Shown here in pieces: positions 13,633-35,837 of a stretch of 64,000 nt of DNA. Source of the DNA: Methanogenium organophilum. Its GTDB lineage: Archaea > Halobacteriota > Methanomicrobia > Methanomicrobiales > Methanomicrobiaceae. Below the pieces are notes generated by a model. That model was not told the origin of the DNA, did not search any database, and worked only from the letters and a program-made list of their open reading frames with translations. The first letter of the stretch is position 1. Each line of letters opens with the position of its first letter. The position numbers and the translations under genes were made by a program. Location: NCBI RefSeq assembly GCF_026684035.1, contig NZ_CP113361.1:2294001-2358000 (forward strand). Reading direction: 5' to 3'.

Positions 13633-14352
13633 ATGAATCCAATCCTTGTGGTCGCAAAAAAAGAGATGAAACAGATCGCAAAGAACCGGTCTCTGATAAT
13701 AGGCATCGTTATTTTCATGGGCATCTTTGGTGGGATGACCTCCCTTGGTGCGATCATGTCGGTTATCGAGGGTGATGCGGGGAGTATTGTATCAACACTT
13801 GATTCCCTTATGATGTATCTTGTGCTGGTGCTGGGTGTCTTTAGCGGATATTTTTTCTCTTCACAGGCGTTCCTGGGTGAAAAGACCGAAGGGACAATCG
13901 AAACGCTGCTCTGCTCCCCTCTGCCGTTGCGAGACATCTGGCTGGGTAAAGTTCTTGGCGTGATGGTGCCCTCCTATGCGGTTGCACTCCTCATTGCGGC
14001 AGTATTGGTGGCTCTTTCAAACATGGCAGCAGACGTTCTGGTATTGCCTTCTGTTGTCATGATGCTGTTTGTGCTCATGGTTGTCCCGGTCTATATCGCA
14101 TGTGCCATCGGCATGTTAGGGTTCGTCCAGTTGCTTTTGGGTATGAGAGAGAACCAGATAATAAATATCGTGGTGATTATCGGATTTATTGTAGCAATCT
14201 CCGTTTTCGACAGTCTTGTGACGGAAGGACTGATTGTGATGTCCGCTCCGGTTGTGGGGGTGATGTTTCTTCTGGGCATTCTTCTGATAGCCGCTATCGG
14301 GTACATGACCCGGATATTAAGCCGGGAGAAGATTGTAACGACCCTTCCCTGA
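13633..14352 (+). CDS. ABC-2 type transporter permease
   Basis: Membrane subunit of the exporter, 239 residues with about six hydrophobic helices and the ABC-2 pattern of a GEKTEGTIETLLCSPLPLRDIWLGK segment between helices 2 and 3. It pairs with the upstream ATPase. Its last ~60 codons and downstream flank recur in diverged form at 15328-15560, on the far side of the hydrolase gene, showing that a second copy once existed. Confidence 0.92.
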   Translation: MNPILVVAKKEMKQIAKNRSLIIGIVIFMGIFGGMTSLGAIMSVIEGDAGSIVSTLDSLMMYLVLVLGVFSGYFFSSQAFLGEKTEGTIETLLCSPLPLRDIWLGKVLGVMVPSYAVALLIAAVLVALSNMAADVLVLPSVVMMLFVLMVVPVYIACAIGMLGFVQLLLGMRENQIINIVVIIGFIVAISVFDSLVTEGLIVMSAPVVGVMFLLGILLIAAIGYMTRILSREKIVTTLP

Positions 14353-14405
14353 GGACGGGGATTCTGTTTTTATTTTTTACCTCTGGAGAAATAGTCTCTG
14401 AAGCC

Positions 14406-14418
14406 AAAATTATATATC
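14406..14418 (+). promoter_or_regulatory. TATA box for the hydrolase gene
   Basis: AAAATTATATATC sits about 40-50 bases upstream of the hydrolase ATG and is a good archaeal TATA element, implying that the gene has its own promoter rather than being read only from the ABC operon. Confidence 0.5.
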
Positions 14419-14457
14419 CTGCCAAATGACATCTTCAAGAAATCCGAAAGGTTTCTG

Positions 14458-15327
14458 ATGTCCAGCCAATTATCCTCATTCAAAAGCCCAAAGGGTGAAG
14501 CCGAGTATCAATTAACTTATGATGCTGTTCTGAAACTGTGGCCGGTACCTTTTGAAGAAATTGATATAATAACCTCCTTCGGAACTACCCATGTCATCGC
14601 GAGTGGTTCGAAAGGGTCGCCATCACTGCTTGTACTGCATGCCTGTGGCGTAAGTTCAACGATGTGGTTCCCAAACATCAGCGCCTTAAGTAGCGCCTAT
14701 CGTGTTTATGCTGTCGATATCATTGGTGAACCGGGAAAAAGCCACCAGTCCCGGTTACTCAGAGATAGGGAGGATTGCGCGAACTGGCTGGGCGAGGTAA
14801 TGAAGGGTTTGGGTTTAAAGAGAACGAATATTGCCGGATTATCGTATGGGGGGTGGCATACGCTCAATTTTTCTTTATTTTTCCCGGATAAAGTTAACAA
14901 AATTGTCGCTCTTGCACCTGGAGCTTCCATTCTGCCGTTCAGCTGGCTGGTGCTCTTAATGCTCCGCCTGCTCCCTTACGTGCCCTTCAAACCGAACCCG
15001 TTTAAGAGTTTTTTTAACAAGGGTTTTCACCCTAACGAATTGTTTTCCAGGCAATTTGCGAGTGGGATAAAACATTTTCGCTATGCTGACCCTCAGGAAA
15101 GTATTTTTACCAACGTCTTCAGTGAGGCTGAGCTCAGCAGAATCAATGTTCCAACACTTTTTATTGTCGGCGAAAATGAGATTATTTATGATCCCATCGC
15201 TGCAACTGAAAAGGTCAATCGACTAATACCGAACGCCGAAACAAAACTGGTCCCGAATGCAAGCCATTTGGTCTCAATGGAACAGCCCGCACTGGTAAAC
15301 AACCATATTTTAACATTTCTGGAATAA
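14458..15327 (+). CDS. Alpha/beta hydrolase
   Basis: A 289-residue alpha/beta hydrolase-fold protein. The oxyanion region is VLHACGVSSTMWFPN, the nucleophile elbow is GLSYGGWHT (serine about residue 139), an acidic residue in GENEIIYDP is the probable triad acid, and the late NASHLVSMEQP supplies the histidine. Substrate is unknown. The gene sits between an ABC permease and a 3-prime fragment of a second permease copy; its stop codon lies exactly where homology to the permease resumes, so it appears to have replaced the 5-prime part of a duplicate permease. Confidence 0.88.
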   Translation: MSSQLSSFKSPKGEAEYQLTYDAVLKLWPVPFEEIDIITSFGTTHVIASGSKGSPSLLVLHACGVSSTMWFPNISALSSAYRVYAVDIIGEPGKSHQSRLLRDREDCANWLGEVMKGLGLKRTNIAGLSYGGWHTLNFSLFFPDKVNKIVALAPGASILPFSWLVLLMLRLLPYVPFKPNPFKSFFNKGFHPNELFSRQFASGIKHFRYADPQESIFTNVFSEAELSRINVPTLFIVGENEIIYDPIAATEKVNRLIPNAETKLVPNASHLVSMEQPALVNNHILTFLE

Positions 15328-15516
15328 CTATCGTGCTGATTATTGGGTTTATTGCGGTGATCTCCGTTTTTGACGGCCTGGTGACGGAAGGAGTGATTTG
15401 TGATGTCCGCTCCGGTCGTGGGAGCGATGTTTATTCTGGGTATTCTTCTGTTGGGAGGGATAGGGTTCATGACCCGGATATTAAACCGGGAGAAAATTTT
15501 AACGACCCTTCCCTGA
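15328..15516 (+). pseudogene. 3-prime relic of a duplicated ABC-2 permease
   Basis: This stretch closely matches 14167-14352, the end of the intact permease, and the match continues past the stop into the flank (ACGACCCTTCCCTGAGGAC followed by a T-rich stretch). An extra T at about 15396 (GAGTGATTTGTGATG against GACTGATTGTGATG) shifts the frame, and there is no 5-prime part. It is the remains of a second permease gene, with the alpha/beta hydrolase occupying the missing portion. Confidence 0.85.
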
Positions 15517-15621
15517 GGACAGGGATACTATTTTTTATTTTTTACGGCTGAAAAACGATCTCTGATGTCAGAGGATCATATGAACCTGTCTTGGGTTGTA
15601 CGTTGCATATCCTGCAATATC

Positions 15622-16386: not shown

Positions 16387-17178
16387 TTATTTCCTCAGAA
16401 ATATCTCTTTATTTAGCATGCCAAACTCATCGAAGCTTGCGTACGACGTGAGAACGATGGAAAGCGTGACGCAGACGGTTCTCGACGCATATATGGTAAA
16501 CATCAGTGCTATCTGATAGGTGATAGCGGTCATCGGGGAGAGACCGGCAATCAGCTGTCCGGTCATCATCCCGGGGAAAAAGACAATGCCCATAACAGCG
16601 ACATTCCCGAGAGAGGGCATGAGTGCGGACCTGAGTGCTGTCCTGAAATACGGGAGGAGTGCCTCTGTTCTTTGTGCACCGAATGAGAGCCAGGAAATAT
16701 ACCGGTTTTCGTTTCTGAGCAGGTCATTGTAGAAGAGAGACACCCCGATGATCGAGCCGCCAAGGGAGTTGCCCAGGAGCATTCCACCGATAGGGAGTAA
16801 AAACCTCGCGTCAGACAACCCGCCATCCTGGAGAATCAGCGTCTCGAAATAGACGAGAAAGAGGGTGGTCGTAATGACAAAGGCAGCAACAGTTGGCAGG
16901 TAGAGTTTTCTGATGTTTAAATCCTGTTTGCGTACGGACTCATATGCTGCAACGGCGATCATGATACATAACCAGACCACATTGAGAAGAGGGTTGTTAT
17001 ATTCAAAGAGTACTGTCAGATAAATGCCTGCAAGGCCCAGTTGAACAGACATCCGAAGGAAGGACCAGACGGTGTCCCGCACCATAGGGAGGTGGGTTTT
17101 GTGCATCACAAAAACGGGAATTATAATCAGGATGATTGCAAAGAAGAGGCCTGTCACAGGAATTGCAGCTGTCTCCAT
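16387..17178 (-). CDS. ABC transporter permease, FetB/UPF0014 family
   Basis: Seven-helix membrane protein of 263 residues with the family pattern VRMSVQLGLAGIYL-like early helix, LLPIGGMLLGNSLGGSIIGVSLFYND and the LPSLGNVAVMGIVFFPGMMTGQLIAG signature shared with iron exporter permease FetB (YbbM). It works with the ATPase encoded 2 bases upstream. Metal-ion export is the known role for the bacterial relative; substrate here is inferred only. Confidence 0.88.
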   Translation of the reverse strand: METAAIPVTGLFFAIILIIIPVFVMHKTHLPMVRDTVWSFLRMSVQLGLAGIYLTVLFEYNNPLLNVVWLCIMIAVAAYESVRKQDLNIRKLYLPTVAAFVITTTLFLVYFETLILQDGGLSDARFLLPIGGMLLGNSLGGSIIGVSLFYNDLLRNENRYISWLSFGAQRTEALLPYFRTALRSALMPSLGNVAVMGIVFFPGMMTGQLIAGLSPMTAITYQIALMFTIYASRTVCVTLSIVLTSYASFDEFGMLNKEIFLRK

Positions 17179-17180
17179 GG

Positions 17181-17813
17181 TTAGTTTCCTCCTACAGGAA
17201 TGATACGGACATTGTCACGGTACCAGGCATCGTCGTGTGATATGGCAATGACGGTCCAGTCATCATGGGAAAGAAAATACTCTGCCACTCGGCTCTTCAT
17301 CAGGCCGTCAAGGGCCGCTGTGATCTCATCAAGGAAAAAGATCGTCCGTCCTAAGAGAAGTGAGATGATAATCGCTATTCTCTGTTTTTCCCCGCCGGAA
17401 AGCGAGCGGAAATCTTTATCCAGAATGGTCTCATCCAGAGAAAACAGGGTGAGGTATTCGTTCAGGGAGGTTTCGTATGGAACCTTCTTGTTTGCCGCGT
17501 ATGCAAAGACGCCTGCAATTAATTCCCTGACATTTCCTTCCCCAATATCGGTATCCTGTGAAATGTACGCGGTCTCCTGCCGTATCTTCCATGCAGTATC
17601 CGCATCAATCTCATGCGTCCGGTAGAAAACCATGCCGGCATGTGGTCTTGCATACCCCTGTGCCATCTTCAGAAGAGTTGATTTCCCGGAGCCGGAGGGC
17701 CCCCTGAGAATGACCTTCTCACCTTTGCATACGGTGAGGGAAAAATGATCGATTATTGTTTTTTCATCAAACACGATGGATACATTTTCATATCTGATGA
17801 TCTCTTCGTCCAT
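17181..17813 (-). CDS. ABC transporter ATP-binding protein, FetA-like
   Basis: A 210-residue ATPase with Walker A RGPSGSGKSTLLK, signature LSGGEKQRIAI and Walker B TIFFLDEITAALD. It is the first gene of a two-gene operon with the FetB-like permease. FetAB in Escherichia coli contributes to iron homeostasis; the pair here may do the same but could carry another cation. Confidence 0.9.
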   Translation of the reverse strand: MDEEIIRYENVSIVFDEKTIIDHFSLTVCKGEKVILRGPSGSGKSTLLKMAQGYARPHAGMVFYRTHEIDADTAWKIRQETAYISQDTDIGEGNVRELIAGVFAYAANKKVPYETSLNEYLTLFSLDETILDKDFRSLSGGEKQRIAIIISLLLGRTIFFLDEITAALDGLMKSRVAEYFLSHDDWTVIAISHDDAWYRDNVRIIPVGGN

Positions 17814-18721: not shown

Positions 18722-19462
18722 TTATCCGCTGGAGTAATTATTTATAAAATATTCAGCCGTCTCCCCGGGAAAATAATGATGGAAATTCTTCTCCTTCTCT
18801 ATTGTTACCAGATTGCCGGAACGGAGTTTATCAATGTGCCATGAGATTGTGGGTCCGGATACCTTTGCATATGCCGAGAGATCTTTTTGCGTGCAGCCGG
18901 GATGTGCGGTTATATAGCTGAAAATATCACGGGTAGTCTCACCGTTCAGAAGAGATCTGGCGAGCTGGTATTCCGGGCTGTATGTATGGTGATTTTCAAA
19001 GTAATGGCGTTGCTTTGTGATTTTTTGGGAAATTACTAACCCTTCCCGTTCCAGGATTTCCAGATGGTGCCGCAGGGAACTGCGTTTAATTCCGGTTACC
19101 GTCTCCATTTCGGTTGCTATTATGCCAGGATTCTTCTGTATTTCCTGATATATTTTCGTTCTCCGTTCATTCTCCAGAATATTTTTCTTTTCAATCTGAC
19201 GAACACCGAGAAAAGCACCCGATAGTATTGCGAGGAGATTTGCGAACGGTATCAGAATCGGGATATTTATACCAATAAATGAGACGATATGAGATTTTAA
19301 CGGAAGCTCCCACCATTCGACAACATACACCACATCTTCTCTGGTAAGATCAGGGGGGTCTGCACTTGGTGTGACAATAATATTCGAATTTACTGAAGCC
19401 TGATGGGCATAGGCAATGATTACAATAGCTACGATTGTAATGATTGTCCCTTTAAGACTCAT
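18722..19462 (-). CDS. Membrane-anchored regulator with two winged-helix domains, copy 1
   Basis: A 246-residue protein: helix 1 (about residues 5-20), an extracytoplasmic loop of some 37 residues (21-57, rich in Pro/Asp with EWWELPLKSH at its end), helix 2 (58-87), then two winged helix-turn-helix domains. The first (102-158) contains TGIKRSSLRHHLEILEREGL, the second (172-232) KVSGPTISWHIDKLRSGNL. A membrane-tethered DNA-binding protein that could sense an envelope signal through the loop. It follows the secreted PPC-like gene by 40 bases on the same strand, and the pair is transcribed away from shared operator module A. A close paralog lies at 32063-32800. Target genes are inferred, not shown. 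Confidence 0.85.
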   Translation of the reverse strand: MSLKGTIITIVAIVIIAYAHQASVNSNIIVTPSADPPDLTREDVVYVVEWWELPLKSHIVSFIGINIPILIPFANLLAILSGAFLGVRQIEKKNILENERRTKIYQEIQKNPGIIATEMETVTGIKRSSLRHHLEILEREGLVISQKITKQRHYFENHHTYSPEYQLARSLLNGETTRDIFSYITAHPGCTQKDLSAYAKVSGPTISWHIDKLRSGNLVTIEKEKNFHHYFPGETAEYFINNYSSG

Positions 19463-19502
19463 AATATATCATATAAAAAACGAGGTAATTAGTTTGTCGG
19501 TA

Positions 19503-19940
19503 TTACAGCAATGTGTAACTGACCGATGATCCAAAAACCTCTCTCCCATATACCCTGAGTTCCCAGTCACCCATGGGAAGAAAGCCTGAGGATGTTTTTA
19601 TGTCAACGTCAATCACGCCGTCCTTTACCGAACTATCGTAGAGGTCGGTGTAGTGTCCGACAAAGTCTCCATCCGGTGAAATAACAGACAATTCAAGATC
19701 CCCAAAGTGTTCATCCCAGGTCAATGTGACGTCAATTTTTGACGTGAAGGGCCATACATATCTCAAATGTCTGATTGTTTCTCCCTGGGTGATCTGATTT
19801 ATTACTCTTGAACCTGAAAGATCGGGATTGTACTTGTCAACCGAAGGTATGACGATAATCTCACCTGTCTCAACTCTTTCCATTACATCGCCCGCCGCCG
19901 CAGGCGCAATGGCCAGTGCCGCAAGGAGAAGGGCTGTCAT
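19503..19940 (-). CDS. Secreted PPC/P-domain-like protein, copy 1
   Basis: A 145-residue exported protein: hydrophobic signal (MTALLLAALAIAPAAA), then a beta-rich domain with IDVTLTWDEHFGDLELSVIS and a C-terminal GDWELRVYGREV-type strand, the pattern seen in bacterial pre-peptidase C-terminal and P-domain-like modules. In the relic at 23178-23521 the frame begins nine codons earlier (MMTRNRSLLMTALL...). Here the equivalent upstream ATG is followed by TGA at codon 3 (CGA in the other copy), so translation must start at the internal ATG 19940 with a shortened signal peptide. First gene of an operon with the membrane regulator; may act as its external partner. Confidence 0.75.
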   Translation of the reverse strand: MTALLLAALAIAPAAAGDVMERVETGEIIVIPSVDKYNPDLSGSRVINQITQGETIRHLRYVWPFTSKIDVTLTWDEHFGDLELSVISPDGDFVGHYTDLYDSSVKDGVIDVDIKTSSGFLPMGDWELRVYGREVFGSSVSYTLL

Positions 19941-19964
19941 TAAAAATGAACGATTTCATGGCAT

Positions 19965-20153
19965 AATTATGCAATTATATATTTTCTGTTATATCCCTGT
20001 TCTGGCCATATCATCTAAATAGGTATTTCTATTTAGACGATTTGGTCTGAAGAGGTATATATGAAGGAGTGAAATGGATCTTCTGAAGATCTGATGCTAC
20101 CTGAAAATGGGGGTGGACCGGTCTGCCTGCGGTAAAAAATAAAGAGGTAAAAA
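19965..20153 (+). promoter_or_regulatory. Shared operator/leader module, copy A (divergent type)
   Basis: Contains the 20-bp interrupted palindrome TTTAGACGATTTGGTCTGAA (20032-20051), overlapped by a second inverted repeat TCTAAATAG-N6-CTATTTAGA (20014-20037). Then follow a TATA-like GGTATATATG, a perfect hairpin GATCTTC-T-GAAGATC (20077-20091) that also encodes the mini-ORF MDLLKI, and a GGGGGTGGACCGGTCTGCC block. A GAGGT ribosome-binding site lies before ATG 20154. A reverse-strand TATA (around 19973-19983) serves the divergent PPC-regulator operon, so both directions can share the operator. Confidence 0.75.
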
Positions 20154-20852
20154 ATGAAATTAAGGAAAGACGTGCGGGCCTTGAGCCTGCTGATGGTAAT
20201 TGCCCTTGTTGGGGCGATTTTCGTTCCGGCGGTTAGTGCTGATAATGTCGAAATCTCTAATTCAGTTCAATTGGATGAAAATTTACAAGCTGGAGACTTT
20301 ATTATTAGTAATTCAAATAGTTGCGTAAAAGCATCAGAAATACTCAAAAATATTGATCCTGAATTTTACCAAAATTTATCCGAGGATCAGAAAAAAGAAT
20401 TTGATAATATGGATGTAAATATTCCTGATCTGAACGACCCAGAAGGGACATCAGAATTTAATATCAAAGCTATAAAGGAAGAATCTGATTCAAAAACGAC
20501 ATTTGAAATAACTGCCTATATTAGTGGCTATGTAGATATCAATTATGATTCTTGGCTTGGGTTAAATGGAGCGTTTTATGAAGCAAAACAAACGTCAACT
20601 GTACTTATGCCGGAGATGGAAACAAAAGCATATCTGAATTATCGTCCCAACTCAAATTCGAATTGGGTTGTGAAAGGATCCGCCGAAGAAGCAGCAACAT
20701 ATTGCTATACGGTTGAAGCTGGTGACGTAGAATGGAGTCCAGATGATGGAGATTATCAGACTGTGGGAACTATTTATGGTGTATTCCCACCAGGATTTGT
20801 TCCACTAACTTATTTTGAGGTAGCAAACTCTCGAATAATGACTCTATCCTAA
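20154..20852 (+). CDS. Secreted protein with the shared signal peptide (cassette A)
   Basis: A 232-residue exported protein. The N-terminus (MKLRKDVRALSLLMVIALVG...VSA) is the signal peptide common to several island genes, with cleavage expected after VSA (about residue 29). The mature part is acidic and beta-rich, with Asn-rich repeats near the start and single Cys residues around positions 57 and 190; no domain is recognised. It is expressed from module A with a GAGGT site 5 bases before the ATG. Confidence 0.7.
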   Translation: MKLRKDVRALSLLMVIALVGAIFVPAVSADNVEISNSVQLDENLQAGDFIISNSNSCVKASEILKNIDPEFYQNLSEDQKKEFDNMDVNIPDLNDPEGTSEFNIKAIKEESDSKTTFEITAYISGYVDINYDSWLGLNGAFYEAKQTSTVLMPEMETKAYLNYRPNSNSNWVVKGSAEEAATYCYTVEAGDVEWSPDDGDYQTVGTIYGVFPPGFVPLTYFEVANSRIMTLS

Positions 20853-20887
20853 ATGGGGGATATTTAGAAATCCTTCCTATTTTTAAA

Positions 20888-21069
20888 GATTCATACTTAT
20901 TGGATAAAATCAGAACAACAAACGAGGTGGAGATAATAAATAAGGAACTCAAAAACGAACCAGTGTTGTTGGTGCATTTCCGAATGATGAGTCTTTACTG
21001 AGATCAGTGGTCTCTGTTGTGATAGATATGAATAGAGAGTGGATTGCCAGCAGAATATATATTAATTGA
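20888..21069 (+). pseudogene. C-terminal relic of an IS256-type (mutator) transposase
   Basis: One frame reads DKIRTTNEVEIINKELK, then a +1 shift gives RTSVVGAFPNDESLLRSVVS and on to DMNREW...RIYIN before a TGA at 21067-21069. This matches the conserved end of IS256-family transposases (RTTN-x-ER-LN-x-E-IKRRT-x-VVG-x-FPN-x-ESLLRLV). Only the last ~60 codons survive, frameshifted, without terminal repeats seen. It marks past insertion-sequence activity inside the island. Confidence 0.8.
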
Positions 21070-21147
21070 GAATGGATGATCCAGTATGAATATAGGTCGA
21101 TCAATTTTACAGAAAAATAGGTACACTATCCAGCGGAAAGTGGGAAA

Positions 21148-21594
21148 ATGAACAAAATATACAAGCATTTCGTCATCATTGGAATTATTATGGCAGTGAT
21201 TATCCTGTCAGCCGGATGTATGGACTACATACCTGCGCTAGTAAATAACCATATAATAACGGACGATAACGTAACCCATCAGAAATGGCAGTCAGAATTT
21301 CTGGAAGATCGGGAGAAATTCAAGACAAATCCTGAAAATCCCCTCGAATGGACATTAAAAGGAATGGATATTGCTGCTACGCATGGGCATGAAGAAGCAC
21401 TGGAATATTATGATATCGCAATTGAGCTTGATCCAGAATATGCATTTCCGTATTATGAAAAGGCATTTTCGTTATTTATTCTGCAAAGAACTGATGAGGC
21501 CGAAGAGTGCCTTGATAAGGCCGTTGAAATCAACCCTCAGTATAAACCGCTTGCCAAAAAATTACGGTCTGACTTTATACGGGAAGAATCGTGA
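21148..21594 (+). CDS. TPR lipoprotein, copy 1
   Basis: A 148-residue lipoprotein with signal and lipobox LSAGC (Cys about residue 25), a short linker, and tetratricopeptide-like helices (residues 70-140: ALEYYDIAIELDPEYAFPYY, AEECLDKAVEINPQYKPL). It probably sits on the outer face of the membrane as a protein-binding scaffold. A paralog of the same length lies at 33962-34408; in both cases a four-helix membrane protein follows, so the block was duplicated. Confidence 0.8.
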   Translation: MNKIYKHFVIIGIIMAVIILSAGCMDYIPALVNNHIITDDNVTHQKWQSEFLEDREKFKTNPENPLEWTLKGMDIAATHGHEEALEYYDIAIELDPEYAFPYYEKAFSLFILQRTDEAEECLDKAVEINPQYKPLAKKLRSDFIREES

Positions 21595-21639
21595 AAATTT
21601 TCTTCAGACATCAATTATTCTTTTCCTGTGATTATTCTG

Positions 21640-21820
21640 CGATTATACCTGTATGACCTCATGCTCTTCCGGCTGAATCATCCAAATCGGTCAATCTATT
21701 TAGACGATTTGGTCTGAAGAGGTATATATGAAGGAGTGAAATGGATCTTCTTAAGATCTGATGCTACCTGAGAATGGGGGGGACTGGTCTGCCTGCGGTA
21801 AAAAGTAAAGAGGTAATAAA
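21640..21820 (+). promoter_or_regulatory. Shared operator/leader module, copy B
   Basis: Operator TTTAGACGATTTGGTCTGAA at 21699-21718, identical to copy A, with TATA-like GGTATATATG following. The hairpin/mini-ORF is present with one change (GATCTTCTTAAGATC) that keeps both the MDLLKI reading and base pairing. The upstream TCTAAATAG arm is absent. The GGTCTGCCTGCGGTAAAAA block and a GAGGTAATAAA site precede ATG 21821. Confidence 0.7.
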
Positions 21821-21981
21821 ATGAAATTAAGGAAAGACATGCGGGCCTCGAGCCTGCTACCGGCAATTGCATGTGTCGGGGCGATTTTTTCGTTCCGGTT
21901 GTGAGTGCGGTTGAAGATTTGAGTCAATTAAAAAGCACAAAAACTCAACCAACGAGCGCTCCCATTCCAACAACGACTTAA
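21821..21981 (+). pseudogene. Orphan, frameshifted signal peptide (cassette B)
   Basis: The frame starts like cassette A (MKLRKDMRASSLLPAIACVG) but a run of six T residues (GCGATTTTTTCG, against GCGATTTTCG in copy A) shifts it and it ends at a TGA after 27 codons. Removing two T residues restores VSA-type cleavage and a short mature peptide ending SAPIPTTT before TAA at 21979-21981. So either a decayed signal peptide with its cargo deleted, or a short secreted peptide switched by T-tract slippage. Confidence 0.65.
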
Positions 21982-23177: not shown

Positions 23178-23521
23178 GAACTGAACTATCGTACAGGTCG
23201 GTGTAGTGTCCGACATAGTTTCCATCCGGTTTGTAAACATACAATTCAAGATCTCCAAAGTGTTCATTCCAGGTCAATGTGACGTCAATTTTTGATGTAA
23301 AGGGCCATACATATCTCGAATAGACGATCATCTCTCCCTATGGTGATCTGATTTAGTACTCTTGAACCCGGAAGATCGGGATTGTACTTGTCAACGGAAG
23401 GTATGACGATAATCTCACCCGTCTCAACTCTTTCCATTACATCGCCCGCCGCCGCAGGCGCAATGACCAGTGCCGCAAGGAGAAGGGCTGTCATTAATAA
23501 TGAACGATTTCGTGTCATCAT
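23178..23521 (-). pseudogene. Secreted PPC-like protein, decayed copy 2
   Basis: Reverse-strand sequence closely similar to 19503-19940. The signal peptide is intact (MMTRNRSLLMTALLLAALVI) and the first ~55 codons align, but indels near 23335 break the frame after NQIT and the last ~30 codons are missing, with the break near 23178. It faces module C in the same divergent arrangement as copy 1 faces module A, but no regulator gene follows it. Confidence 0.85.
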
Positions 23522-23707
23522 TATGCGATTATATATTTTCTGTTATATCCCTGTTCTGGCCATATCATCTAAATAGGTATTTCTATTTAGACGATTTGGT
23601 CTGAAGAGGTATTTATGAAGGAGTGAAATGGATCTTCTGAAGATCTGATGCTACCTGAAAATGGGGGTGGACCGGTCTGCCTGCGGTAAAAGTAAAGAGA
23701 TGATGAA
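23515..23707 (+). promoter_or_regulatory. Shared operator/leader module, copy C (divergent type)
   Basis: Operator TTTAGACGATTTGGTCTGAA at 23586-23605, overlapped by TCTAAATAG-N6-CTATTTAGA (23568-23591). The region is almost identical to copy A, including the GATCTTC-T-GAAGATC hairpin, MDLLKI mini-ORF and GGACCGGTCTGCCTGCGG block. The TATA-like element reads GGTATTTATG here. It ends at ATG 23708 with the site AAAGAGATGATGAA before it. Confidence 0.7.
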
Positions 23708-25189: not shown

Positions 25190-25310
25190 TTATTTTTACG
25201 GCATGGACAGCCGGTACATATATGATCTCATGCTGTTTCCGGCAGAATAATCGAAAGAAATTGAGCTATTTAGACGGTTTGGTCTGAAGAGGTATTTAAG
25301 AAGAGGTAAA
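25190..25310 (+). promoter_or_regulatory. Shared operator module, copy D
   Basis: Operator variant TTTAGACGGTTTGGTCTGAA (25269-25288): only the spacer differs. Upstream is a TATA-like GTACATATATG (25214-25224) following a GCATGGACAGCC dyad. The common leader is absent; the gene begins 22 bases after the operator with AAGAGGTAAAATG. This copy shows that the operator can work without the leader, or the leader has been lost. Confidence 0.65.
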
Positions 25311-26974: not shown

Positions 26975-27175
26975 CATTATTACGGCATGGATATGCCGGT
27001 ACATTTATGCCACCATGTTATTTCCGACAGGATCATCGAAACATGTCGATCTATTTAGACGATTTGGTCTGAAGAGGTATTTATGAGGGAGTTAAATGGA
27101 TCTCTGGTGGATCTGATTCTTCCAGAAAATGGGGGTGGACCGGTCTGCCTGCGGTAAAAGTAAAGAGATGATAAA
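26975..27175 (+). promoter_or_regulatory. Shared operator/leader module, copy E
   Basis: Operator TTTAGACGATTTGGTCTGAA at 27054-27073. Upstream, CGGCATGGATATGCCG is a perfect hairpin (around 26982-26997), followed by TATA-like GTACATTTATG. The leader mini-ORF is changed to MDLWWI (ATGGATCTCTGGTGGATCTGA split by a 4-bp dyad), losing the long hairpin of copies A-C. The AAAATGGGGGTGGACCGG block is retained. Confidence 0.7.
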
Positions 27176-29334: not shown

Positions 29335-29519
29335 ATGCGATTATATATTTTCTGTTTTATCCCTGTTCTGGCCATATCATCTAAATAGGTATTTCTATTT
29401 AGACGATTTGGTCTGAAGAGGTATTTATGAGGGAGTTAAATGGATCTCTGGTGGATCTGATTCTTCCAGAAATTGGGGTGGACTGGTCTGCCTGCAGTAA
29501 AAAGGAAAGAGATGATAAA
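29335..29519 (+). promoter_or_regulatory. Shared operator/leader module, copy F (divergent type)
   Basis: Operator TTTAGACGATTTGGTCTGAA at 29398-29417 with the overlapping TCTAAATAG-N6-CTATTTAGA repeat (29380-29403), as in copies A and C, but the divergent PPC gene is gone; only its promoter-side flank (ATTATATATTTTCTG) remains. The leader carries the MDLWWI mini-ORF form. Site AAGGAAAGAGATGATAAA precedes ATG 29520. The leader is open in one frame here (from 29427), which other copies do not preserve. Confidence 0.7.
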
Positions 29520-32062: not shown

Positions 32063-32800
32063 TCAGACTGAACTCGCATGTACAAAAGAACCAGCCGTCT
32101 TACTGGGAAAATAATGATGGTAATTCTTCTCTTTTTCTATTGTTACCAGATTGCCGGAACGGAGTTTATCAATATGCCATGAGATTGTGGGACCGGATAC
32201 CTTTGCATATGCCGAGAGATCTTTTTGCGTGCAGCCGGGATGTGCGGTTATATAGCTGAAAATATCACGGGTGGTCTCACCGTCCAGAAGAGATCTGGCG
32301 AGCTGGTATTCCGGGCTGTATGTATGGTGATTTTCAAAGTAATGGCGTTGCTTTGTGATTTTTTTGGAAATGATTAACCCTTCCCGTTCCAGGATTTCCA
32401 GGTGGTGCCGCAGGGAACTGCGTTTAATTCCGGTTACCGCCTCCATTTCGGTTGGTATTATGCCTGGATTCTTCTGTATTTCCTGATATATTTTCGTTCT
32501 CCGTTCATTCTCAAGAATATTTTTCTTTTCAATATGCCGGACACCGAGAAAAGCACCTGATAGTATTGCAAGGAGACTGCCGAACGGTATCAGAATTGGG
32601 ATATGTATGGCTATAAATGAGGTGAGATGACTTTTTAGCGGAAGTTCCCACCATTCGAGAACATGCACCACATCTTCTCTCGTGAGATCCGGGGGGTCTA
32701 CACTCGGAGTGACAATAATATTCGAGTTTACTGCGGCCTGATTGGCATAGGCAATGATCACAATACATACAATTGCAATGATTGCCCCCTTCAGATCCAT
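32063..32800 (-). CDS. Membrane-anchored regulator with two winged-helix domains, copy 2
   Basis: A 245-residue paralog of the protein at 18722-19462, nearly identical through both winged helices and both membrane helices; the greatest change is in the last ~12 residues and parts of the extracytoplasmic loop. The ATG at 32800 gives the same N-terminus (MDLKGAII). A longer frame to 32908 reads through the PPC relic in another frame and is not credible. Its partner gene is reduced to the final ~21 codons immediately upstream (32841-32906), so this copy has lost its secreted partner and possibly its promoter. Confidence 0.85.
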   Translation of the reverse strand: MDLKGAIIAIVCIVIIAYANQAAVNSNIIVTPSVDPPDLTREDVVHVLEWWELPLKSHLTSFIAIHIPILIPFGSLLAILSGAFLGVRHIEKKNILENERRTKIYQEIQKNPGIIPTEMEAVTGIKRSSLRHHLEILEREGLIISKKITKQRHYFENHHTYSPEYQLARSLLDGETTRDIFSYITAHPGCTQKDLSAYAKVSGPTISWHIDKLRSGNLVTIEKEKNYHHYFPSKTAGSFVHASSV

Positions 32801-32840
32801 GATAGAAAATATAAAAAACGAGGTGTTTAATTTGTCGGTA

Positions 32841-32906
32841 TCACACCAGTGAGTAACTGACAGATGATCCAAAAACCTCTCTCCCGTATACTCTGAGTTC
32901 CCAGTC
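32841..32906 (-). pseudogene. Secreted PPC-like protein, 3-prime relic (copy 3)
   Basis: Reverse-strand frame DWELRVYGREVFGSSVSYSLV followed by a stop at 32841-32843 matches the last 21 codons of the gene at 19503-19940 (…GDWELRVYGREV). Everything upstream is replaced, at 32907, by the forward-strand metalloprotease fragment. This shows the whole PPC-regulator pair was duplicated before truncation. Confidence 0.85.
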
Positions 32907-32910
32907 AACA

Positions 32911-33192
32911 GATTGGTATGATTATTGCTACTGGGGTACGGGTCATGGGCGTAGGTGTGTAAGCATCCATGAAATTGGTCATAACTTTAATGCACACCAT
33001 GAAGGCACTTCTGGCTATAATCAGGCGTATGCATTTAATATCGGCGGTCTGACCCATACGGTGATGTGGAGCTATTTCTTTGAACATCTCAATTGCTATG
33101 AGTTTTCATCTGATAATTATCATGGAGATGCCACACATGATAATGCAAGAGCTATACGTGAAGCAAAGGCGTGGGTTGCAGGTTATGCTTAA
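32911..33192 (+). pseudogene. 3-prime relic of a zinc metalloprotease
   Basis: The frame open from 32911 to a TAA at 33190-33192 encodes about 93 residues with a textbook zinc-binding site, VSIHEIGHNFNAHHEGTSGY (HExGHxxxxHH), followed by IGGLTHTVMWSYF, which resembles the Met-turn region of metzincins. There is no start codon or signal; it abuts the PPC relic at 32907. The catalytic core tail of a reprolysin/M12-like protease has been cut from its propeptide, of which two homologous stand-alone versions lie at 31020 and 35838. Confidence 0.75.
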
Positions 33193-33784: not shown

Positions 33785-33961
33785 GATTATCAATATCTGC
33801 TGTCATGCTCTTCCGGCAGCACCATCGAAACGGGTCAATCCATTTAGACGATTCGGTCTGAAGACATATGTAAGATGAAACGAAATGGATCTTCAGGGAA
33901 TCTTATTCGTCCTGAACAGGGGGACGGGTCTGCCTGCGGAAAAAAGGAGAGAGGGAAAAAT
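33785..33961 (+). promoter_or_regulatory. Shared operator/leader module, copy G
   Basis: Operator variant TTTAGACGATTCGGTCTGAA (33843-33862; one spacer change). The downstream TATA-like element and hairpin have diverged, and the leader block reads GGGGGACGGGTCTGCCTGCGG. A GGAGAGAGGGAAAAAT site precedes ATG 33962. Unlike copies A-C, the downstream gene has a lipoprotein signal rather than the shared signal peptide. Confidence 0.65.
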
Positions 33962-34408
33962 ATGAAGGCAATATGGTATTTGTTCACCATTGGTGTGATA
34001 CTTGCAGCCATTGCCCTGTCAGCCGGATGTACTGACTACATGCCTTCGCCGGTAGGAGGCTATATGATAACGGACAATAACGTCACCCATCAGAAATGGA
34101 TGTCAGAATACCTGGAAGATCCGGAGAAATTCAAGACGAATCCTGAAAATCCCCTCGAATGGACATTAAAAGGAATGAGCAGTGTTGCAGCGGGTGGTAG
34201 GCATGAAGAAGCGTTGGAATATTATGATATCGCAATCGGGCTTGATCCAGAATATGCATTTCCGTATTATGAAAAGGCATTTTCGTTATTAATTCTGCAG
34301 AGATATGATGAGGGTGAAGAGTGCCTTGAAAAGGCTGTTGAAATCAACCCTCAGTATGAACCGCTTGCCAAAAGAATACGGTCTGACTTTATCCGGAAAG
34401 AATCATGA
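33962..34408 (+). CDS. TPR lipoprotein, copy 2
   Basis: A 148-residue lipoprotein (lipobox LSAGC) very similar to the protein at 21148-21594, including PLEWTLKGM and the two TPR-like helices (EALEYYDIAIGLDPEYAFPY, EECLEKAVEINPQYEPL). Directly controlled by module G, whereas copy 1 lacks an adjacent operator. The downstream flank is also similar (ATTCTTTTCCTG…), so a block containing this gene and the next membrane protein was duplicated. Confidence 0.8.
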   Translation: MKAIWYLFTIGVILAAIALSAGCTDYMPSPVGGYMITDNNVTHQKWMSEYLEDPEKFKTNPENPLEWTLKGMSSVAAGGRHEEALEYYDIAIGLDPEYAFPYYEKAFSLLILQRYDEGEECLEKAVEINPQYEPLAKRIRSDFIRKES

Positions 34409-35689: not shown

Positions 35690-35837
35690 ATGCCGGTACA
35701 TATATGCCACCATGTTGTTTCCGGAAGGATCATCGAAACATGTCGATCTATTTAGACGATGTGGTCTGAAGAAGTATGTATGATGAAGTGAAAACGGATT
35801 ATCCGGTGAACTAATTATTCATTTGTAGAGGTGAAAA
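35690..35837 (+). promoter_or_regulatory. Shared operator module, copy H
   Basis: Operator variant TTTAGACGATGTGGTCTGAA (35751-35770; one spacer change). Upstream, CGGCATGGATATGCCG (about 35680-35695) and GTACATATATG match copy E. The leader downstream is not conserved, but the gene uses a GTAGAGGTGAAAAATG start region and a related signal peptide. The 180 bases before it also resemble the flank of module D (TGTCGATGCAGA region). Confidence 0.65.

Follow-up and report, generated by a model that had tools for sequence, protein, structure and literature searches.

What does a membrane-tethered protein with two DNA-binding heads do beside the gene for a secreted protein and a long palindrome shared by divergent promoters? 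The question is raised by a locus of Methanogenium organophilum, analysed here in a window of 64,000 nucleotides that lies within a single 2.65-Mb contig. Archaeal trans-envelope signalling is poorly understood, and the available text of a survey of transmembrane transcription regulators (TTRs) describes Methanomicrobia as enriched in such proteins (PMC10269533). From its sequence, the gene pair at this locus looks like a little-known archaeal way to sense the cell exterior and control secreted proteins.

Anatomy of the regulator, its secreted neighbour and the operator

Consistently with the sequence-only reading, which had proposed two membrane helices, an outside loop of about 37 residues and two winged helices in a 246-residue protein, Kyte-Doolittle hydropathy of the 246-aa regulator ORF gave hydrophobic segments at residues ~1-25 and ~58-88, with an intervening loop of ~37 residues (~21-58), and profile matches identified wHTH1 (HVO_0163_N/HTH_20, residues ~98-158) and wHTH2 (HTH_24/MarR-like, match at residues ~175-223, domain ~173-230). 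TTRs are recognised by the presence of one or more membrane segments in the same protein as a DNA-binding domain, a combination that the regulator is predicted to have. An OmpR-type identity was rejected, PF00486 being unmatched throughout this genome and matched in 10 of 14 control genomes. In PADLOC the regulator matched defence-associated proteins (Csa3, CARF, others) in their winged-helix parts, and readings as a defence-system or CRISPR regulator were dropped because the similarity is confined to the HTH part. The AlphaFold monomer models were of low confidence (pLDDT 51 and 45) for partner and regulator alike.

The secreted PPC-like gene comes first, 40 bp upstream of the regulator ORF on the same strand, as expected from the proposal that the two form an operon. 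Alone, the partner protein of the window gave a weak P_proprotein match (E ~0.04; 0.035); 4 of 10 partner relatives matched PF04151 (PPC; best 1.5e-8) in a profile search, and the low-confidence fold model of the partner resembles the jelly rolls of subtilases and furin. Searched as a profile against the PDB, the partner family returned no match, and PADLOC returned none for the PPC or cargo proteins. Compared with the truncated second copy, the partner carries a CGA-to-TGA change near its start, with loss of the first signal-peptide residues in this genome; the start is intact in most orthologues from other genomes. In M. marinum (G002) the PPC gene beside the regulator is broken. In M. cariaci (L065, G001) apparent frameshifts, which may be sequencing errors in a draft genome 59% complete, interrupt the regulator orthologue.

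The palindrome lies, as had been noted, between the divergent starts of this operon and module A. It had been described as overlapping palindromes: the inverted repeats are real, but they are better read as one palindrome of ~50 bp with two-part arms. The PPC-adjacent site is one palindrome across genomes as well, its arms (TGACCAAATCRTC...GAYGATTTGGTCA) beginning 32 bp from each other, or 31 bp in one genome, and some arms in G018 and G013 have changed yet are still symmetric (TGACAGAATCATC...GACGATTCTGTCA and GGCCAGATAGTC...GATTATCTGGCC). All eight genome-wide copies of the operator core are on the + strand at 20.0-35.8 kb of the window, and a reversed-pattern control gave 0; the module copies have otherwise diverged, keeping the right (promoter-proximal) arm and the following TATA-like stretch, with the left (far) arm decaying. 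A tiny ORF follows a GGAG-like stretch within module A (20092-20112 region; ATGGATCTTCTGAAGATCTGA, MDLLKI) and reads MDLWWI in other modules; in copies 6 and 7 a frame continues into the next gene.

Coordinates of the features in the window
Feature	Position	Strand	Remark
Membrane-tethered regulator	18722..19462	-	hydrophobic segment 1, extracytoplasmic loop, hydrophobic segment 2, wHTH1, wHTH2
Secreted PPC/P-domain-like partner	19503..19940	-	CGA->TGA changes the start of the signal peptide; translation would restart at ATG 19940
Operator palindrome	20004..20047	.	GGCCATATCATCTAAATAG-GTATTT-CTATTTAGACGATTTGGTC, arm starts 32 bp apart
Operator core copy 1	20031..20052	+	ATTTAGACGATTTGGTCTGAAG
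Putative TATA-like box	20056..20062	+	just past operator right arm; read from the sequence
Secreted 232-aa protein	20154..20852	+	first divergent target (predicted); cargo signal peptide (ALSLLMVIALVGAIFVPAVSA)
TPR lipoprotein	21148..21594	+	beside the 232-aa protein
Operator core copy 2	21698..21719	+	
Truncated second PPC copy	23180..23564 (also given 23285-23521)	-	about half the gene; with palindrome, without regulator
Operator core copy 3	23585..23606	+	full palindrome beside truncated PPC copy
Operator core copy 4	25268..25289	+	
Operator core copy 5	27053..27074	+	
Operator core copy 6	29397..29418	+	
Second regulator copy	32066..32800	-	~88% aa identical, intact; without palindrome or full PPC gene
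3' remnant of PPC gene	32812..32907	-	from second operon copy
Operator core copy 7	33842..33863	+	before orphan TPR lipoprotein
Operator core copy 8	35750..35771	+	

Operator and regulator across genomes

The earlier reading had regulator, PPC gene and palindrome occurring together, and this was borne out across related genomes. We searched 80 of them with the regulator (orthologue threshold about 50% identity or more) and with the operator core (at most 3 mismatches). An orthologue was present in nine and the core in seven, all seven within those nine; in the two remaining orthologue-bearing genomes the site is occupied by palindromes that have diverged but kept their symmetry. Neither of the contrary cases sought among the 80 relatives, a genome with the palindrome and no regulator or with the regulator and no palindrome, was found. 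The PPC gene adjoins the regulator at the orthologous loci. Two genomes of the same genus (G005 and G006) lack both orthologue and core, and an order-wide search of 232 genomes confined the orthologue to the same nine.

Operator similarity, compared over 23 operators, correlated with similarity of wHTH1 (r = 0.58), wHTH2 (r = 0.53) and TM2 (r = 0.48), and partial Mantel tests controlling for the TM2 region still gave r = 0.43 for wHTH1 and r = 0.34 for wHTH2 (0/2000 permutations each), in a sample selected for having palindromes and with a test that is liberal under shared ancestry. G018a combines a changed wHTH1 helix (INSNSLEYHL) with a changed outer operator element, and G018b, which has a near-copy in G013, a changed wHTH2 helix (STVLWHI) with a changed inner element; because these changes pair up, we hypothesize that wHTH1 reads the outer part of the operator arm and wHTH2 the inner. 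The covariation favours the suggestion that a two-headed protein fits an operator of paired repeats. Binding of the palindrome by the regulator is what we infer from these patterns. Rfam, with no matches at positions 19400-21900 of the window, gives no indication either way. There is a very small chance that another DNA-binding protein binds the palindrome, or that it acts as a nucleic-acid hairpin, the regulator being a mere neighbour; against this stand the presence of the palindrome at regulator loci across genomes and at cognate promoters throughout the family, and the fact that it varies together with the winged helices more than TM2 similarity explains.

A tag shared by the regulator loop and the partner

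The regulator loop carries the tag NIIVTPSAD (residues 27-35) and the partner EIIVIPSVD near its mature N-terminus, in both proteins shortly after a hydrophobic N-terminal segment. Genome-wide, the DNA pattern of the tag occurs in five places, four of them in the two regulators and the two PPC copies and the fifth in an unrelated GTPase. Partner N-terminus and loop were compared by their most similar 7-mers, and this similarity averaged 21.2 over 41 pairs, from which several divergent ones had been excluded by hand, versus 17.8 when permuted (0/20000); with divergent pairs restored and redundancy removed, p was 0.006 for 14 representatives (<40% identity) and <5e-5 for 26, shared ancestry being incompletely removed in these permutations as in the Mantel tests. 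By a loose pattern, a tag-like motif was present in 51 of 60 paired regulators, with 34 pairs carrying the tag in both proteins, and several pairs have variants of their own: TIIVVPG/EIIVRPG (L137), YTITW/YTVTF (L204) and DRYKVTP/DRYLVTP (L200).

The shared tag indirectly supports a putative contact between loop and partner, and with it the earlier suggestion that the secreted protein could signal through the loop, although many partnerless regulators keep it: because 30 of 52 regulators without a detected adjacent PPC gene carry the tag-like motif by the same loose pattern, the tag may bind something else. These partnerless regulators, and the position of the tag behind a hydrophobic segment in both proteins, would suit a stand-alone, one-component membrane regulator with the PPC protein as its main co-transcribed target, the tag marking both for a third factor (a protease, or an S-layer or anchoring enzyme). 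We regard this as unlikely, though the most serious competitor, given the strong gene pairing and the co-variation of tag details within pairs, which a single common factor does not obviously require. The common layout would also suit a vestige, the regulator N-terminus having arisen from a duplicated partner signal peptide and tag that is now functionless, with the palindrome still bound; conservation of the tag in both proteins across distant genera, its pair-specific co-changes and the rarity of the motif elsewhere in the genome make this improbable. One group of regulators from GC-rich genomes (L100-L119), whose tags resemble GYTVRPAGDHIPDG and EWWQVPP, has no detected PPC neighbour, and a partner in trans is possible.

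The reading that we prefer, and judge fairly probable, is an archaeal co-component-like unit in which the secreted PPC protein is the input, the membrane regulator the output and a local set of secreted-protein genes the regulon. Outside the cell, PPC protein and regulator would associate where they share the tag, for example by strand exchange at an edge of the PPC beta-sandwich, so that the abundance of the PPC protein, its ligand or its damage would show in the state of the regulator. In the cytoplasm, the four winged helices of a regulator dimer would read one ~50-bp palindrome, the two heads reading the two-part arms. Since the operator appears to lie just outside TATA-like boxes on both sides, it would control the operon to which it belongs as well as the secreted-protein gene on the divergent side, and its position upstream of the TATA-like box slightly favours activation over repression. 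The operator and signal-peptide segment, copied seven more times before further secreted or lipoprotein genes, would make up the local regulon.

The archaeal family, its relatives and its cargo

The regulator-PPC pair is a widespread archaeal family found in many methanogens, and our literature search found no description of such a pair of secreted PPC protein and dual winged-helix regulator. Several paralogues of the regulator in the same genome (24-33% identity) likewise follow secreted PPC-like genes; a search of the order with one of them found family members in 63 of 120 genomes, and a PPC-like ORF lay just upstream of 63 of the 120 regulator ORFs at the examined loci. Across 295 genomes of the phylum, a PPC profile detected relatives in 77. 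The regulator directly followed the PPC gene in 15/15 inspected PPC loci (from L193-L210), 13 of them outside the order, a figure that gives no rate for the whole PPC family because these loci were the best-scoring.

In each of 48 non-redundant operons, the 150 bp that precede the PPC start were scanned with 20-bp arms, and the best palindrome was compared with first-order Markov shuffles, with control windows inside the regulator gene; an earlier scan (14-bp arms, 200 bp) was replaced and kept out of the statistics. A significant palindrome (p <= 0.005) was found in 22 operons, the other 26 having none by this criterion, and mean z was 2.9 upstream versus -0.1 in the control windows. The significant palindromes lie mostly at -82 to -102, and many have TATA-like stretches on both sides. 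At L011, L108, L125, L128 and L131 the divergent gene encodes a secreted protein with a cargo-type signal peptide. A wider proposal, which we put forward tentatively and as somewhat less probable than its opposite, is that the whole family is co-component-like, with a matching N-terminal tag by which PPC protein and regulator recognise each other, and with a long palindrome particular to each pair by which it controls a variable arsenal of secreted proteins (possibly effector-immunity pairs).

Bacterial co-component regulators have one HTH, placed first. The regulator here has two winged helices after its membrane segments, and its gene follows that of the partner. Co-component systems are recognised by an adjacent, same-orientation gene for an extracytoplasmic partner, which is present here in a putative operon; VtrA/VtrC and ToxR/ToxS (PMC9214523) likewise comprise a membrane-tethered transcription factor and an extracytoplasmic partner encoded adjacently. 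Those bacterial pairs differ from this archaeal one in having an OmpR-type winged helix, unmatched in this genome, and a lipocalin-like partner in place of a PPC/P-domain-like beta-sandwich; because these two defining features fail, we place the pair with the TTRs and outside the VtrA/VtrC-ToxR/ToxS superfamily. By analogy, the regulator is a new variant of the TTR kind that would work like VtrA/VtrC and ToxR/ToxS. It has in common with the surveyed TTRs a DNA-binding domain and membrane segments in one protein; the available text of that survey mentions neither a secreted PPC partner nor a shared tag or a long cognate palindrome (PMC10269533). ArnR and ArnR1 of Sulfolobus acidocaldarius (PMC6396743) are also archaeal membrane-bound regulators, acting on inverted repeats and surface structures; the layout of ArnR, a single HTH at the N-terminus, a HAMP-like region and two membrane segments at the C-terminus, differs from the membrane-segments-first regulator described here, and the available text of that paper describes no PPC partner. 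The pair offers a concrete two-gene system whose predicted partner, contact segment and DNA site are all testable in genetically tractable methanogens.

In the modules the operator is followed by secreted or lipoprotein genes, mostly with an additional small membrane or lipoprotein gene. Cargo family matches were few (TPR, and a weak C39-like peptidase in G016), and pairings of the 232-aa-protein/TPR-lipoprotein kind recur in G001, G013 and G018. Effector-immunity pairs are one possible reading of the cargo. Variable secreted proteins in arrays, with membrane proteins after them, also characterise the VARTIG modules of Thermococcales, proposed for microbial conflict (PMC8416519); those contain Ig-domain proteins, and the terms PPC and wHTH are absent from that paper. 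As the apparent targets here are variable secreted proteins, the system may open archaeal cell-cell interaction to study. The second regulator copy is intact, with a dN/dS of 0.29, but has lost its palindrome and most of its PPC gene, and the truncated PPC copy has a palindrome but no regulator. A similar pattern occurs in G016, with three palindrome-cargo units, decaying extra PPC copies and one regulator.

Further observations concern single sites of the window. At 33875-34408, a TPR lipoprotein gene follows an operator copy of its own but lacks the secreted companion that the TPR lipoprotein has at 20154-21594, and resembles an orphan immunity gene. At 32907-33150 (+), a metalloprotease-like ORF fragment (HEIGHNFNAHHEG) is fused directly to the PPC 3' remnant, marking a rearrangement junction. 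The regulator operon adjoins a UPF0014 permease and ABC ATPase pair (FetAB-like, 16387-17813), and an alpha/beta-hydrolase gene (14458-15327) is seemingly flanked on both sides by copies of the 3' end of an ABC permease gene (14239-15551), the pattern that an insertion would leave.
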